DNA of 64,000 bases from Victivallales bacterium (GTDB lineage Bacteria > Verrucomicrobiota > Lentisphaeria > Oligosphaerales > Oligosphaeraceae). Positions 2,006-14,763 of this stretch are shown here, in pieces. The DNA is taken from the NCBI GenBank assembly GCA_017535315.1, contig JAFXUD010000047.1, positions 62,001 to 126,000 on the forward strand, read 5' to 3'. The position numbers and the translations under genes were made by a program. Within the stretch, counting starts at the first letter, position 1, and the number at the start of each line of letters is the position of its first letter. Below the pieces are notes generated by a model, which made no database searches, was not told the DNA's origin, and was given only the letters and a program-made list of their open reading frames with translations.

Positions 2006-4750
2006 ATGAAACTAAGGAGCCTGTTGACCATCATGAGTACTGCATTTATGGCCATGGCTGCGGAGCCGCCGCCTGTTGTCATCACGGAGTTCAGCAATAA
2101 CGTCCAGTACGCCCCAGTTAAGCACCCTGCCCTGTTTAACTTTTACAAGTATAGCACAGAATCCTTGAAGGCGAAAGTGGCACCCATCATGGAACTATCC
2201 GAGAAGGAGCTGCTGGACATGTTGCCAATCCAAGCAGGCATCTGGTTCATGAGCTGCCCGAAAAAAGGCTGCCTGAATCCACAGGGTTCCTGCTTCATCT
2301 GGGACATCAAGCAGCCAGACAAGCTGGTCTGCCGCACTTGCAAAACAGTCTTCCCCAACAAGGACTACCCCATCACAGGCGAGACGGTTGCCACGGCGCC
2401 CAGCGGACGCAAATGCCACTTCCCCTACTACGAGCGAGACGGCTGGCACTACCACATCCAGGCAGGCATCGACTACCGCAAGCGCGACTACTTCTCGGAG
2501 GCCGCCCGCAGCCTGGCCATCCTTTACTACCAGACCAAAGAGGAGCAGTACGGACGGCGAGCCGCCCTCATCCTCCTCCATTTCGCGAGGCACTATGGGG
2601 ACATCTGCTACAAATATGATTTCCCCTTTGCCCCCAACACCTTCCGCAACGGCGTGCCAGCCCTCAATGACATGGAACCGCATGGACGCATCAGCCGCTT
2701 CACATGGTGGTACTACATGGACATCCCGCGCTGGTGCATCGTTGCCTACGACTTCCTGATGACCAATCCAAAGCTCATGCAGTCCATCGCCGACGAATAT
2801 GGCGAAAACTTCCAGGAGCTGGTGCAGACGCGTTTCCTAGAGCAGGCCGCCAAGGACGTGCTTCGCGTCGAAGAACGCTACACCAACATGGGGCCAAACG
2901 TGTGGATTTGCCTGATGGAACTGGCGCGCGTCACAGGCAACTCCGACTACTTCCACATCTCCCTCCGACGCACGGAGTACTTCCTGCGCACCAAGTTCTT
3001 CCCAGACGGATTCTGGAGCGAGGCGTCAGATAGCTACCATCGGCAAAGCTACGGCAGCATACGCTACATCGTCAACCGTGCCAAAGGCTTCAGCGCCCCC
3101 GACGGCCCACTCTCCATCTATGCCACCCAGCGCATAACCAACTACGACCCAGCCTGGTTTGCGCAGTTCATTGCGCTCTCCGACAAACGCGCACGCCAGC
3201 TCCGCATGCCCAAAGGCCTGCTTTCTCTGAATGACACTGGTGTCGATGACGCTGTCTTGACGGGAGATGACAAGGAGGAGCTCATCCGCGAATCCTATCT
3301 CATGCCCAATGTGGGAATAGCCAAGATGTTCGCGGGAACAGTCGAGAACCCCATCCTGTGGTACTCCGAGTTCACCACAAAGTACGGTCACAACCACAAC
3401 GACCTTCTGAACGTCTCCCTCTTTGCCAACCACCGCCAGGCGCTTTCCGACCTCGGCTACACGCACTCCCACCTCCGCCCCTACACCACAGGCACACCAC
3501 AGCACAACCTTGTGGTCGTTGATTTGAAATGCCAGCAGGTGCCTAGGGAGGGTGGACGCCTCCTCTTCGCGGAACTTCAAAACCCAACCTGCAAAATCGT
3601 CGATATGGATGCTCCAAACGCCTACCCAGAGCTGAAGGAGTACTCCCGTTGCGACTTCCTCGTCTCCGTCGGCAACACTGGCTATGTGGTCGATTTCTTC
3701 ACCGTGGCGGGTGAAACCTCCACCCTCGACTTCTTCTTCCACGGCGATGCATGGAAGGAAGACGATGTCACCATGTCTGCCAACGGCAAGCAACTTGCCT
3801 TCAAGCCAGACGACCTCCTGTCCAAGGAGATGCGCGCTGCCTGGAAATCCGCGACGAAGGAGAGCGACTGGGACCTGTTGCGTCAGCCTGGCCACAACTA
3901 CGGCTACTTCTCCGACATTTCCTCCTCGAAATGGAACTGCAAGAATGAGACGCTCACCGTTGATTTCAACAATCCCGACGGCACACTGCTGCGGCTGTTG
4001 TTCCCGCCTCACCCCGACTTGTCCCTCAAACCATTCATTGGACGCGGGCCGTCACTCAACCAGGCTTCCAAGGACTCCAGTGCCATTGGCAAGTACTTCC
4101 GCCGCTTCGCCTGCCTGCGCCACACTGGACCGATATCCAAAAAGGCGCGTTTCCACTGCCTTCTGGAGTTCCAGCCAGATTTGGTGAAGGGTATCCAGAT
4201 GCTAGCTCCCAACATCATGGCCATTGCACTCGAAAACCGTCTGGACATCCTCTTCAAAGACCAGTCCTATGCGCAAGACTTCAGCCTCGCAAGTAACCTG
4301 TCCTGTGCGCGAGGCTTTAGCCTCGCGGGAAAGGTCACCCTCCAGGGTTCCTACGGCTTCCTCTCCCTTGACAGCAAAGGCAACCTGTTAGATGCCTACG
4401 TGGCAGGAGGTTCCATCTCCATCGACGGCAAGACGATGATTTCCACTCCCGCGCCCCTCCGTACCCAAATCCTGTCTGCCGATGCAGAATACACGCTGGA
4501 ACTTGAAGAGGAACTAAACCTCCCGCAGGGGGCCTTCATCAAAATCCTCTTCCCTGAGCAGCAGCAGACACGAGGCAACTACGTTATCGCCTGCAAGGAC
4601 AAGACCCTCACTCTGAAGGAAAGAACAGGCCTAATACGTACACCCGAGAACGGCTGGAAGTGGGATAGTTTCCCGCGCACCGCCATCCCAGGCGAACTCT
4701 TCATCGAACACACCCCAGTGAGCCATTTTACCTTGGAGAACAAAAAATGA
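2006..4750 (+). CDS. secreted heparinase II/III-family polysaccharide lyase-like protein
   Basis: 914 residues from ATG 2006, chosen because AAGGAG lies at 1994-1999 and the product then begins with a signal peptide (MKLRSLLTIMSTAFMAMAA). An ATG at 1964 in the same frame lies inside repeat A1 and is less likely. About residues 60-110 hold a Cys-rich patch (SCPKKGC, CRTC). An alpha-helical toroid-like region follows, with FWSEASDSYHRQSYGSIRY, then YGHNHNDLLNVSLF near residue 470, the His/Asp motif at the start of the heparinase II/III beta-sandwich. The family cleaves uronate-containing polysaccharides such as heparan sulfate or alginate by beta-elimination; the substrate here is unknown. The stop overlaps the next gene by 4 bases, so the two are probably translated together. 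Confidence 0.85.
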   Translation: MKLRSLLTIMSTAFMAMAAEPPPVVITEFSNNVQYAPVKHPALFNFYKYSTESLKAKVAPIMELSEKELLDMLPIQAGIWFMSCPKKGCLNPQGSCFIWDIKQPDKLVCRTCKTVFPNKDYPITGETVATAPSGRKCHFPYYERDGWHYHIQAGIDYRKRDYFSEAARSLAILYYQTKEEQYGRRAALILLHFARHYGDICYKYDFPFAPNTFRNGVPALNDMEPHGRISRFTWWYYMDIPRWCIVAYDFLMTNPKLMQSIADEYGENFQELVQTRFLEQAAKDVLRVEERYTNMGPNVWICLMELARVTGNSDYFHISLRRTEYFLRTKFFPDGFWSEASDSYHRQSYGSIRYIVNRAKGFSAPDGPLSIYATQRITNYDPAWFAQFIALSDKRARQLRMPKGLLSLNDTGVDDAVLTGDDKEELIRESYLMPNVGIAKMFAGTVENPILWYSEFTTKYGHNHNDLLNVSLFANHRQALSDLGYTHSHLRPYTTGTPQHNLVVVDLKCQQVPREGGRLLFAELQNPTCKIVDMDAPNAYPELKEYSRCDFLVSVGNTGYVVDFFTVAGETSTLDFFFHGDAWKEDDVTMSANGKQLAFKPDDLLSKEMRAAWKSATKESDWDLLRQPGHNYGYFSDISSSKWNCKNETLTVDFNNPDGTLLRLLFPPHPDLSLKPFIGRGPSLNQASKDSSAIGKYFRRFACLRHTGPISKKARFHCLLEFQPDLVKGIQMLAPNIMAIALENRLDILFKDQSYAQDFSLASNLSCARGFSLAGKVTLQGSYGFLSLDSKGNLLDAYVAGGSISIDGKTMISTPAPLRTQILSADAEYTLELEEELNLPQGAFIKILFPEQQQTRGNYVIACKDKTLTLKERTGLIRTPENGWKWDSFPRTAIPGELFIEHTPVSHFTLENKK

Positions 4751-5601
4751 ACACACCAACCAAAGCCGACGAGTTTTTCAAAAGCTACTTCACGCCCCCC
4801 TATGACCGCAGGGTTATGAACATCGAGTACTCCGTGTTGAGCGACTTCCACGGCAGGGCTTTCCTTGCAGGCAACACGGAAATGCATTTCCGCAAGTCCC
4901 TTGAAGAGGGCTTCGACGGGCTGAAGGCGGACATGCGGTTCACAAGCGACGGTGAAATCGTACTCTGCCACGACGCAGGCTATACATTCGACGCCAATGG
5001 ACGCATCACCAAGTTCGACAGGGAAAACTTCACGCCCATCCACGACCTCCCTATTGACCAGGTGCGTGCCCTTGAGTTCGACCAGCCATTCGAGGGGCAG
5101 ACGCTTCATCCCTGCACGCTCGACACCATGCTCGCGGTCTGCGAGGAACTGGACGCCATCCCCTATCTCACCCTCCGTCCTGAACCATGGCGCCCCGAAG
5201 TCGCAAAACGCATGGTAGAACTCATTGTCAAGCACAATTTGCAGCATCGCACCATCATCAACCTGTTCACAGGCGTCAAGGAGGCGATGGAGTGCGTTTC
5301 TACCCTGCTCCCAGGCCTCGTCTATTGCAACACACGTCTCGGCACGGACGCGCTCACCACGGAACTCATTGATTCTTCCGCCGCCGACGGTTACAAAATC
5401 ATCTGCATCTGCCAGAGGATGTTCGACACCATCACTGCCGAAAACTGCAGCTACGCAGCCTCCAAGGGCATCCACATCTGGAACTGGGGCGCTGGCAACA
5501 TCGAACTCGTCGCCTCCAACCTGAACCAAGGCGTCACAGGCTTCCAGATGTACAACCGCGAAGCCAACAATGCCGTCATAGCCAAACTGCTCCATCAATA
5601 A
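4747..5601 (+). CDS. glycerophosphodiester phosphodiesterase (GDPD)-like TIM-barrel protein, cytoplasmic paralog
   Basis: 284 residues; ATG 4747 overlaps the upstream stop (ATGA). The N-terminal third matches the GDPD fold: SDFHGRAFLAGNTEMHF in place of the HRG...ENT block, then LKADMRFTSDGEIVLCHD in place of the (I/V)E-x-D-V-...-T-DG-...-V-HD block. The second metal and active-site region (DG....HD) is intact, but the Arg of HRG, the Glu of ENT and the Glu of the ExD pair are replaced (HG, GNT, KAD). Enzymes of this family hydrolyse glycerophosphodiesters using a divalent metal; the substitutions suggest altered chemistry or substrate. No signal peptide. It is a tandem paralog of the next gene. 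Confidence 0.78.
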   Translation: MNTPTKADEFFKSYFTPPYDRRVMNIEYSVLSDFHGRAFLAGNTEMHFRKSLEEGFDGLKADMRFTSDGEIVLCHDAGYTFDANGRITKFDRENFTPIHDLPIDQVRALEFDQPFEGQTLHPCTLDTMLAVCEELDAIPYLTLRPEPWRPEVAKRMVELIVKHNLQHRTIINLFTGVKEAMECVSTLLPGLVYCNTRLGTDALTTELIDSSAADGYKIICICQRMFDTITAENCSYAASKGIHIWNWGAGNIELVASNLNQGVTGFQMYNREANNAVIAKLLHQ

Positions 5602-5615
5602 CAGGAGGTTTTACC

Positions 5616-6578
5616 ATGCATAAATGCCTTTCCACTATAATTGCCCTCTGCATCGGTCTGATTTTCACAATAAACGCACAGGACGCAGCCATGAACATAC
5701 CCAAGACACAATCGGTGACCACACATCCAGAAGCAGATGCGGCATTCAAGCGCTTCTTTACCATCCCATTCGAACGCAAGGCAATGGATGTCCTCTACTC
5801 AGTTGTCTCCAATTTCCATGGCAAGGGACGGGTGTGGGGCAATACGGAAATGCACTTCCGCAAAGGCGTGGAAGAGGGCTTCGACGCCTTCAAGGCGGAC
5901 ATGCGACTATCCAGTGACGGCGAAATCGTCCTTTGCCACGACGAAGGCTTCACGTACGATGACAACGGAAGAATCACCCGATTCGACAAGAACAACTATG
6001 AGGCAATCCATGACATGCCCCTTGAGAAAATCCTAAAGCTGGAGTACAACATCCCGTTTCAGGGGCAGTATCTCCACCCCTGCACGCTGGACGCCATGCT
6101 CGCCGTCTGCGCGGAGCATGGAAAGACTGCCTATCTGACCTTCCGCCCCGAAGCGTGGCGCGAAGATATCGCCAAGCGATTGGCCGAGCTTCTCGTCAAG
6201 CACAACATGCAGCATCGCACCATCATCAACATGTTCCTTGGTGAAAATGTTGCAAGGACTACAAAGCAAGTTGTCACCAAATACATTCCAGGTCTGGTCT
6301 TCTGCCACACGCAAAGAGGCAACGTGCCACTGACAAAGGAACTTATCGATGCATCTGCAACTGAAGGCTACCAGATTATCTGCTTGTACTACAAAGACCA
6401 AATCGACACCATCACCCCAGAGCTTTGCCAGTATGCCGCTGACAAAGGCATCCGCATCTGGTGCTGGGCTGTCGGCAGCAAAGAAACTGCCGCAGCCTCC
6501 ATCGCCAAAGGCGTATCTGGCTTCCAGATGGGCTCCCGCGACTTGAACCAGGCCGCCATCGACGAAATGCTGAAGTAG
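5616..6578 (+). CDS. secreted GDPD-like TIM-barrel protein, tandem paralog
   Basis: 320 residues with an AGGAGG-type ribosome site just before ATG 5616. It begins with a signal peptide (MHKCLSTIIALCIGLIFTINA, then QDAA), so it is exported, unlike its upstream paralog. After residue 40 it aligns throughout with the previous protein: VVSNFHGKGRVWGNTEMHF, FKADMRLSSDGEIVLCHD and the shared ending GFQMGSRDLNQAAIDEML. The same three family residues are changed in both copies, so the change predates the duplication and is probably under selection. With the secreted heparinase-like gene this forms one operon. A role in breaking down a phosphodiester-containing or sugar polymer is possible but unproven. 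Confidence 0.78.
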   Translation: MHKCLSTIIALCIGLIFTINAQDAAMNIPKTQSVTTHPEADAAFKRFFTIPFERKAMDVLYSVVSNFHGKGRVWGNTEMHFRKGVEEGFDAFKADMRLSSDGEIVLCHDEGFTYDDNGRITRFDKNNYEAIHDMPLEKILKLEYNIPFQGQYLHPCTLDAMLAVCAEHGKTAYLTFRPEAWREDIAKRLAELLVKHNMQHRTIINMFLGENVARTTKQVVTKYIPGLVFCHTQRGNVPLTKELIDASATEGYQIICLYYKDQIDTITPELCQYAADKGIRIWCWAVGSKETAAASIAKGVSGFQMGSRDLNQAAIDEMLK

Positions 6579-6698: not shown

Positions 6699-7631
6699 CT
6701 AGCTTCTCGGCACCAGTGCGAACTTGATGGTAGCCGCGCACACCTTCACTCCGCCCACATAGAACTCGCCAGAGGCGACGCCGAACTTCCCATGCGGTTC
6801 GTAGGTGATTTTCATGGAGAGCCGCTCGCCTGGCAAGACGGGGCGTATGATTTCCGCCGTGTCGATGGACATGAAGAAGCCCAGCATCCCCTTGTTTGCG
6901 GGCTGCGACAGCATTCCCGCACATCCAAGTTGTGCTCCCGCCTCGATTTGTAAGCAGTAGTCGAAGCGGCATGGAGAGACCGCATTCACCAGCGGGTCGT
7001 TTCCCGTGACATTCTTGAAGCCGATGATCGTATTCGACTTGCCCAAATCGTAGGCTCCATCCAGCAGCATAAAGGGGAATCGGTGGGGTATGTGCTCCAT
7101 AATGGCAACGGGTCCAGAAAGGACACTATCCACTGGCAATTCTGCCATAAATGGCGCAGTGCCCGTCGCTGGCGCGGGAGCAAACCACTCTGCAGATTTT
7201 CGTTCAAGCGTGATGTAGGCACTGGAAGCGACATCCTCCGTCCCTTCCACAACAGCCTTGATCGAGTACTCGACCTTGCCACCCTCCGTTTCCTGTGCCA
7301 ATTCGCACACAACCTTCAAGGCCATGCCTGGCAGAACGGGCGTGCGGAACTTCACCTTGCGAAGGGCAATCACAGTAACCACACCCTCCCCAGGGAAACA
7401 CGCCTCATGGAGCGCCCTTGCTGCCTGGTCCATCATGGCAACCTGCAAGACCCCTGGCAGCACGGGCTGCCCAGGGAAATGCCCTTGGAAAACTACCTCG
7501 TTCATGCTCACCATCTTGCTGCCAACCGCGCTCTTCGCATCAATATCCACTGACAGCCTGTCAAGCATCAGGACTGGGGATTTCACCTTGAGAATGACAG
7601 GAAGCTCTTCGTAGGAATAGGTTTTCTGCAT
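6699..7631 (-). CDS. fused double-hotdog (FabA/FabZ-type) dehydratase-like protein
   Basis: 310 residues. I start at ATG 7629-7631, which has AGCAGGTG upstream; a GTG nine bases earlier overlaps that site. There are two hotdog domains in tandem. Domain 1 (about 8-140) has VVFQGHFPGQPVLPGVLQVA with the FabZ catalytic His at residue 51, but Ala replaces the catalytic Glu in the following helix. Domain 2 (about 183-308) starts with IPHRFPFMLLDGAYDL and GFKNVTGNDPLV, lacks the GHFP His, yet has the Glu (Q-I-E-A, residue 230). In FabZ homodimers each active site takes His from one subunit and Glu from the other, so this fusion keeps one complete composite site. Likely a 3-hydroxyacyl-ACP dehydratase or a related step in lipid or envelope synthesis; a non-catalytic role cannot be excluded. 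Monocistronic. Confidence 0.8.
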   Translation of the reverse strand: MQKTYSYEELPVILKVKSPVLMLDRLSVDIDAKSAVGSKMVSMNEVVFQGHFPGQPVLPGVLQVAMMDQAARALHEACFPGEGVVTVIALRKVKFRTPVLPGMALKVVCELAQETEGGKVEYSIKAVVEGTEDVASSAYITLERKSAEWFAPAPATGTAPFMAELPVDSVLSGPVAIMEHIPHRFPFMLLDGAYDLGKSNTIIGFKNVTGNDPLVNAVSPCRFDYCLQIEAGAQLGCAGMLSQPANKGMLGFFMSIDTAEIIRPVLPGERLSMKITYEPHGKFGVASGEFYVGGVKVCAATIKFALVPRS

Positions 7632-12894: not shown

Positions 12895-13017
12895 TTACAA
12901 GATGCATATTTGCTTTTTGAGGTTTGCAGGGTTAAATTATAAAGGTTGTTTGTTTTCTGTAGAAATCACACAAAAAGAGACAGCTTCTGTCTCAACACAA
13001 AATCAAAGGTCAATAAA

Positions 13018-14763
13018 ATGAGTTGTTGCAAGCAGGATTGGTTAGTGTCGAAAGAGCAGATGATTATTGGAATCGCAAGTGACCATTGCGGTTTTAACCA
13101 TAAGACCGCCCTGCTTGACAAACTGACAGCCAAGGGCTACAAGCTCCAGGACTTCGGCCCTGAAGCCTTCGTGCCGCAAGACGACTACCCCGATTACGCA
13201 TCAAAACTGGCAGAGGCTGTTGCCTGCGACAAGGTTACCTGCGGCATCCTCATCTGCCAGACGGGGATTGGCATGTCCATCGCGGCCAACAGGTTCCACG
13301 GTGTCCGCGCGGCCCTGTGCGCAACCAAGGAGGCTGCCATCCGCAGCCACAATCACAACAACTCCAATGTCCTGGTCATGGGCACATCCAACGTCACCGT
13401 TGACGAGGCTCTTGAAATCGCCGAAGCCTGGCTGACCACCAACTTTAGCGGCGAAGAAAGGCATGTCCGTCGCCTCACCAAACTCGAAAACCTCAGCTAC
13501 GACATGGACATGGCCGCCCTCCGCTTCAACGACCCCGCCGTCGCTGACATTATGAAACGCGAGCAAGACCGCCAGTCACGCGGTATCGAACTCATCGCCT
13601 CGGAAAACTTCGCCAGCCCCGCCGTCCGCGCCGCCGCTGGCTCCATCATGACCAACAAGTATGCAGAAGGCTATCCAGGCAAGCGCTACTACAATGGCTG
13701 CGTCCACGTGGATGAGGTGGAATCCCTCGCCATTGAACGCGCCTGCAAGCTCTTCGGGGCAGAGGCCTGCAACGTGCAGCCCCATTCGGGCAGCCAGGCC
13801 AACATGGCCGCCTACATGGCGCTCATCGAACCAGGCGACACCGTCATGGCCATGAGCCTCGACCACGGCGGACACCTCACCCACGGCCACTCCGTCAACT
13901 TCAGCGGCAAAACCTACAATTTCGTCCCATACGGCGTTTCCAAAGAGACCGAGACACTGGATTATGACAACATCGCGCAGCTGGCCCGTGAAAACAAGCC
14001 GAAGCTGATTCTGGCGGGCGCCAGCGCCTATCCGCGCATCATCGACTTCAAGCGCCTCCGTGAAATCGCCGACGAGGTCGGCGCGTTCCTGATGGTTGAC
14101 ATGGCGCACATTGCGGGACTGGTCGCAGCAGGTGAACATCCTAGCCCCATCCCGTACTGCGATATCGTCACCACCACGACGCACAAGACCCTCCGCGGCC
14201 CCCGCGGAGGACTCATCCTCTGCAAGGAAAAGTATCTGAAGAAGGTCAACTCCAAGGTATTCCCTGGCATCCAGGGCGGACCGCTCATGCATATCATCGC
14301 CGCGAAGGCTGTCTGCTTCGGCGAGGCCCTGCGCCCCGAGTTCAAGACCTATCAGCAGCAAATCCGCAAGAATGCGGCAGTACTGGCAAACACCCTTTCA
14401 GAGAAGGGCTTCCGCATTGTCTCGGGTGGGACAGACAACCACCTGATGCTCGTCGATATGCGCCCCAAGCACACCACGGGCAAAGAAGCGGCAACCATTC
14501 TGGATTTGGCGGACATCACAGTCAACATGAACATGATTCCATTCGATCCCGAGAAGCCAACCGTCACCAGCGGCCTCCGCATCGGCACGCCTGCCGTCAC
14601 CACACGTGGTATGAAAGAGCTAGAGATGGTGGAAATCGCCACGCTCATCACGAAGATGATTGAGAACATCGGCAATGAGAGCGTCTATGCAGAGGTACGC
14701 GAACAGGTTCACGCCCTTACAGCACGCTTCCCAATGCCACAGCTAATTCCACCCTGCTGCTAA
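13018..14763 (+). CDS. glyA: fusion: ribose-5-phosphate isomerase B + serine hydroxymethyltransferase
   Basis: 581 residues from ATG 13018 (AAAGG upstream; ATG 13060 is an alternative). Residues about 15-160 are RpiB/Lac[34 protein letters not shown] with the catalytic Cys, then [12 protein letters not shown]. Residues about 170-581 are complete [64 protein letters not shown] with the PLP Lys, and a C-terminal [11 protein letters not shown]. RpiB interconverts ribose and ribulose 5-phosphates; SHMT makes glycine and methylene-THF from serine. Both feed purine synthesis, so a fusion makes metabolic sense. RpiB works as a dimer or tetramer and SHMT as a dimer, so shared oligomerisation is plausible. 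Both sets of key residues are intact. Confidence 0.93.

Follow-up and report, generated by a model that had tools for sequence, protein, structure and literature searches.

We report that the gene at 6699–7631 on the minus strand of the window (the whole stretch of 64,000 nucleotides analysed here) is very probably the housekeeping FabZ (3-hydroxyacyl-ACP dehydratase, FAS II) of Lentisphaeria, and that it would act as a fused pseudo-heterodimer in which two FabZ hotdog domains share one composite active site. FabZ is an essential core enzyme of fatty-acid synthesis and a drug target, and is normally a symmetric homodimer with two active sites. The open reading frame runs from 7631 to 6699, and the plus strand over this interval is not the gene; the ATG at 7631 gives a protein of 310 residues, with a GTG three codons upstream (7640) as a possible alternative start. 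Numbered from this ATG, residue 51 is a His (in GHFPG) and residue 230 a Glu, as the first-pass annotation had claimed, and alignment with ordinary FabZ bears out the losses that it described in the two halves, the domain-1 Glu position being occupied by Ala65 and the domain-2 His position by Val218. The features of the gene are as follows.

6699–7631, minus strand: double-hotdog FabZ gene, 310 residues plus stop (open reading frame, Pfam and NCBIfam matches)
7194–7631, minus strand: domain 1, residues 1–146, putative His-donating FabZ hotdog (profile match, alignment, model)
7122–7193, minus strand: linker, about residues 147–170 (alignment, model)
6702–7121, minus strand: domain 2, residues 171–310, putative Glu-donating FabZ hotdog (profile match, alignment, model)
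7479–7481, minus strand: codon of His51, putative catalytic His of the live site, invariant in 115/115 (alignment)
6942–6944, minus strand: codon of Glu230, putative catalytic Glu of the live site, invariant in 115/115 (alignment)
7437–7439, minus strand: codon of Ala65, where the FabZ Glu is lost from domain 1; Glu in 74/115 relatives (alignment, tree)
6978–6980, minus strand: codon of Val218, where the FabZ His is lost from domain 2; His in 4/115 relatives (alignment)
7452–7484, minus strand: GHFPGQPVLPG loop of domain 1, residues 50–60, kept here and decayed in domain 2 (motif conservation)
7326–7349, minus strand: FRTPVLPG loop of domain 1, residues 95–102, kept (motif conservation)
7071–7088, minus strand: PHRFPF loop of domain 2, residues 182–187, kept here and decayed in domain 1 (motif conservation)
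6861–6881, minus strand: GFFMSID strand of domain 2, residues 251–257 (FabZ door and tunnel strand), kept here and decayed in domain 1 (motif conservation)

The Pfam FabA and NCBIfam FabZ profiles each match twice, once in either half. PF07977 (FabA/FabZ hotdog domain) matches in two stretches with 74 bits against a cut-off of 23, and the NCBIfam models that match best are those of FabZ and, in its FabZ portion, LpxC-FabZ. The score of 156.6 for NF000582 (FabZ; cut-off 113) passes solely by summing both halves, that for TIGR01750 (FabZ) is 145.7, below the cut-off of 155.15, and single halves score 76–84 each with the NCBIfam FabZ models. Identity to single FabZ chains is 28–32%; the closest named relative among the best 80 of 583 comes from a Victivallales bacterium of the goat rumen (87% identity).

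Catalytic residues and tunnel motifs in the two halves

In the H. pylori enzyme the catalytic site consists of His58 and Glu72' from the other subunit, tunnel residues are contributed by both subunits, and the His and Glu within one subunit serve different tunnels (PMC2692856). Read onto the double protein, His51 and Glu230 would belong to one (live) site and the positions of Glu65 and the domain-2 His to the other (dead) site. Both halves of 115 double proteins were aligned with ordinary FabZ, and His51 and Glu230 are unchanged in every member; since they are invariant across 115 proteins, chance is excluded. The domain-2 His, by comparison, is missing from 111 of the 115, and 41 have lost the domain-1 Glu65, which the other 74 still have. 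The complementary loss proposed in the first-pass annotation is therefore seen in the window but is not a strict rule, the domain-1 Glu still being found in 74 of 115 members. Strict two-way complementarity belongs mainly to the window's order, and the invariant rule, as the alignment has it, is that His comes from domain 1 and Glu from domain 2. Homologues with both residues in one domain, which had been named as grounds for giving up the idea, do literally exist in these 74; we argue that they do not refute it, because Glu65 belongs to the dead site and has been lost repeatedly, whereas His51 and Glu230 have never been lost.

Two of the four members with a domain-2 His (L196 and L220) are relatives from outside the class that carry full HFPG-type motifs and both Glu residues, which makes both of their sites appear complete. 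The remaining two (L182 and L183) are class members with a His at the domain-2 position in a degenerate surrounding loop; in them the second site could retain part of its function, or the His could have been regained. In L215 (genome G264, about 3947–4906, plus strand) an in-frame TGA stands late in domain 1, where its sister L219 has a Gly codon; this may be a sequencing error, mark a pseudogene or divide the protein naturally into two chains.

The division extends beyond the catalytic residues. From our reading of the primes in the published description, we grouped the H. pylori residues into a His side (His58, Phe59, Lys62, Ile64 and Pro112) and a Glu side (Pro22, His23, Glu72, Phe83 and Ile98 to Phe101) (PMC2692856). 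In the double proteins the H, F and P of the HFPG loop are kept at 100% in domain 1 against 2%, 1% and 17% in domain 2, and the P, H and R of the PHRxPF loop at 100% in domain 2 against 54%, 3% and 50% in domain 1. Likewise, the FabZ Phe101 position is conserved at 95% in domain 2 and 0% in domain 1, and the Arg110 position at 96% in domain 1 and 0% in domain 2. What survives is thus the HFPG and FRxPVxPG loops in domain 1, and the PHRxPF loop, the Glu helix and the YFxxID strand in domain 2. Positions on the live side have the lower mean entropy in 15 of 15 comparisons with the dead side (five regions at the levels of family, order and class), and the domain-2 loop on the dead side varies in length. 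As far as sequence conservation can tell, selection maintains one tunnel while the other drifts. Invariance, motif sorting and the predicted fold (below) together support the earlier proposal that a fused pseudo-heterodimer holds one composite site (His51 with Glu230) and one dead one. The term 'subfunctionalised', applied to it at the time, fits loosely, the halves dividing one job and not specialising.

A feature peculiar to domain 2, and absent from FabZ at large, is Cys237 (window 6921–6923), which lies in the Glu-bearing helix at the FabZ Gly79 tunnel position, on the side of the live site, and recurs in 97 of the 113 class members. This conserved residue could be cited in favour of a further suggestion of the first-pass annotation, that the dead second site is free to serve as a pocket for regulation or for binding the acyl carrier, yet it sits on the wrong side for that. 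The dead-site positions themselves are more variable than those of the live site in all five regions and at all three taxonomic depths, and with the loop of domain 2 also differing in length we consider such a repurposing improbable.

Predicted fold and comparison with known dehydratases

An AlphaFold2 model was built from a four-sequence alignment of true double forms (pLDDT 85, pTM 0.86); a mixed alignment with single FabZ was left out of folding because MAFFT split each FabZ between the N-terminus of domain 1 and the C-terminus of domain 2. The modelled chain has a double-hotdog fold, as do dehydratase (DH) domains of the FAS/PKS type. Its top Foldseek match is the DH domain of mammalian FAS (TMq 0.77), and VIA-align superposes almost the entire model on many PKS DH and product-template domains, at Z values of about 18–22; the score for PF21089 (PKS_DH_N) is 18.4 bits, below the cut-off of 27. 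The DH domains of animal FAS and of modular and iterative PKS (EryDH4, CurJ DH) are likewise double hotdogs with one composite site, the His of EryDH4 being supplied by one half and the Asp by the other (PMC3422181). The window's protein also has its His in the N-terminal half and its acid in the C-terminal half, though the acid is Glu and not Asp. The modelled fold is that of PKS/FAS dehydratases, where the corresponding positions meet, and by this likeness His51 and Glu230 would meet in space across the halves. The likeness has its bounds: sequence identity to the FAS/PKS domains is only about 7–18%, the Lentisphaeria protein is a free-standing FAS II enzyme whereas the others are megasynthase domains, and, unlike them, it is clearly FabZ by sequence.

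We suggest that the two FabZ hotdogs, joined head to tail, would pack together as a pseudo-heterodimer with a single working tunnel, to which domain 1 would contribute His51 and the HFPG and FRxPVxPG loops, and domain 2 Glu230, the PHRxPF loop and the door strand. His51 would act as the general base and take the alpha proton, and Glu230 would protonate the leaving beta-hydroxyl, with departure of water. The mirror site would be dead, having presumably lost first the domain-2 His and then the now-useless domain-1 Glu, the latter in at least two lineages that include the window's order. Both dehydratase activity and catalysis within one chain are what we infer for the protein.

It is conceivable that the site forms instead between two polypeptides, His51 of one chain facing Glu230 of another in a swapped dimer of bivalent subunits, given the trimer-of-dimers assembly of working FabZ (PMC2698920) and a linker whose roughly 24 residues would permit such an exchange. 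The single-chain model, however, pairs its own halves in the manner of FAS/PKS DH domains, and we regard a swapped arrangement as quite unlikely. Very unlikely, in our view, is catalysis by domain 1 alone, with His51 and Glu65 working as in a homodimer and domain 2 serving as a scaffold or substrate-binding partner, as HadA does for HadB. The 74 members (of 115) that keep both residues would be compatible with it, but Glu65 is lost in 41 members including the window's protein, with no other FabZ found in most of those genomes; Glu230 is never lost; and the placement of His and Glu of one FabZ subunit in different tunnels (PMC2692856) also argues against it. We therefore retain the composite site within one chain.

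Double hotdogs with one site per pair have been described in general (PMC2698920). Among them, mycobacterial HadAB and eukaryotic hydratase 2 (MFE-2) are also asymmetric hotdog pairs with a single active site, but have both catalytic residues in one subunit or half, whereas the Lentisphaeria form splits them (PMC4491049, PMC2698920). With canonical FabZ (E. coli, H. pylori, P. aeruginosa) the Lentisphaeria form has in common the catalytic dyad, the HFPGxPxxPG, PHRxPF and FRxPVxPG motifs and the lpxC/lpxA neighbourhood. The canonical enzyme, however, is a homodimer (or hexamer) with equivalent sites, whereas the Lentisphaeria form is one chain with unequal halves, in the window one lacking His and the other Glu, and would have one site. 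In the known LpxC-FabZ fusions (PMC516016; NF009667/PRK13188, in other Verrucomicrobiota, Bacteroidota and Chlorobium) FabZ also adjoins LpxC; in Lentisphaeria, by contrast, LpxC has a gene of its own and the fusion is between two FabZ domains, and neither Pfam nor NCBIfam finds an LpxC domain in the window's protein. In full-text searches of open-licence papers we found neither a FabZ-FabZ fusion nor the stepwise loss of a site in one described, and while the architecture is known from FAS and PKS, the FabZ-derived version and its preserved intermediates appear to be undescribed.

Distribution and gene setting of the double form

In genomes related to the window's (its family, order and class) a match was found in 52 of 59. 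A sample of the phylum (288 genomes at least 90% complete, most of them metagenome-assembled) places the long double form in 88 of 94 class genomes (one of these with an in-frame TGA and one cut at a contig end) and in 2 of the 194 others in Verrucomicrobiota; in the six class genomes without a match the assembly may be incomplete or the gene absent. Elsewhere in the phylum we found single FabZ frames or long frames matching C-terminally, one of them a confirmed LpxC-FabZ, and a wider scan of contigs, which also covered bacteria beyond Verrucomicrobiota, gave three double forms among the best 80 of 583 confirmed relatives. Within the class, hits of the FabZ model are almost confined to the two halves of this gene; three large genomes carry an additional single FabZ-like frame. 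Nearly all relatives, single-contig genomes such as G008 among them, yielded no canonical single FabZ. In a class genome of about 2.0 Mb (G048; 3 contigs, 95% complete) the FabZ match lies only inside a frame of 2333 residues, and this organism may have lost fatty-acid synthesis or may use a megasynthase.

The window's own genome has LpxC and six ketosynthase matches; apart from the double gene, FabA/FabZ-type models match in it only an ApeI-like protein encoded close to ketosynthases, and no MaoC match was found. We therefore take the double gene to be its only good candidate for a housekeeping dehydratase. The ApeI-like gene (L002, 1453–2184, minus strand, contig C49) lies among ketosynthase and thioesterase-like genes in what looks like an aryl-polyene-type cluster.

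The usual gene setting of FabZ is lpxC-fabZ-lpxA. Of 64 class loci fetched with wide flanks, 59 have lpxC as the immediate upstream neighbour in the same orientation; miaA is often divergent beyond lpxC, and in several other class loci lpxA lies directly downstream. The identities of these neighbours were checked. The window's own family has lost this linkage, lpxC no longer being the upstream neighbour. Considering the divergent sequence and the draft state of the genomes, one might suppose that the protein is a non-catalytic or specialised paralogue, such as one serving a polyketide or aryl-polyene pathway, and that an ordinary FabZ was missed. We find this hardly credible, given nearly complete lack of a canonical single FabZ in relatives down to single-contig G008, the lpxC and lpxA neighbours and the invariant catalytic residues.

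Elsewhere in the window, a plus-strand frame of 605 residues (12946–14763) resembles, by eye, ribose-5-phosphate isomerase B followed by serine hydroxymethyltransferase, and from its sequence is a possible RpiB-GlyA fusion. Two adjacent and similar plus-strand genes (4747–5601 and 5616–6578) are putative tandem paralogues, phosphodiesterase-like by eye, the second with a signal-like N-terminus.

Proposed order of site loss and its meaning

When the trait columns are excluded from tree building, the Glu65 losses fall in the window's order (in which one member, L021, has the Glu) and, independently, in genus g33; a minimum of three changes is needed, and Glu65 has been lost in at least two separate lineages. 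The tree and the residue states suggest that the fusion began with both sites complete, that the domain-2 His was lost next, and that the domain-1 Glu was then lost repeatedly. In one tree domain 1 groups with the free FabZ of Verrucomicrobiota and domain 2 with their LpxC-fused FabZ, and the halves may have descended from two FabZ paralogues, one free and one LpxC-linked; a single clade of both domains is not rejected (AU p 0.218, and 0.783 in a denser tree that contains a misplaced row).

Taken further, we think it rather probable that the whole class depends for fatty-acid and lipid-A synthesis on a FabZ whose FAS/PKS-type design arose independently, and that living genomes keep the route, from two sites (G190 and G297) through the His loss (the class) to Glu loss on at least two occasions. 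A bacterial class appears to depend, for a core enzyme and drug target, on a fused asymmetric form with half the sites. Moreover, since extant relatives show both sites complete, one broken and both leftovers gone, the step from a homodimer to an obligate pseudo-heterodimer, as supposed for FAS/PKS dehydratases, may here be testable with natural proteins and not with reconstructions.
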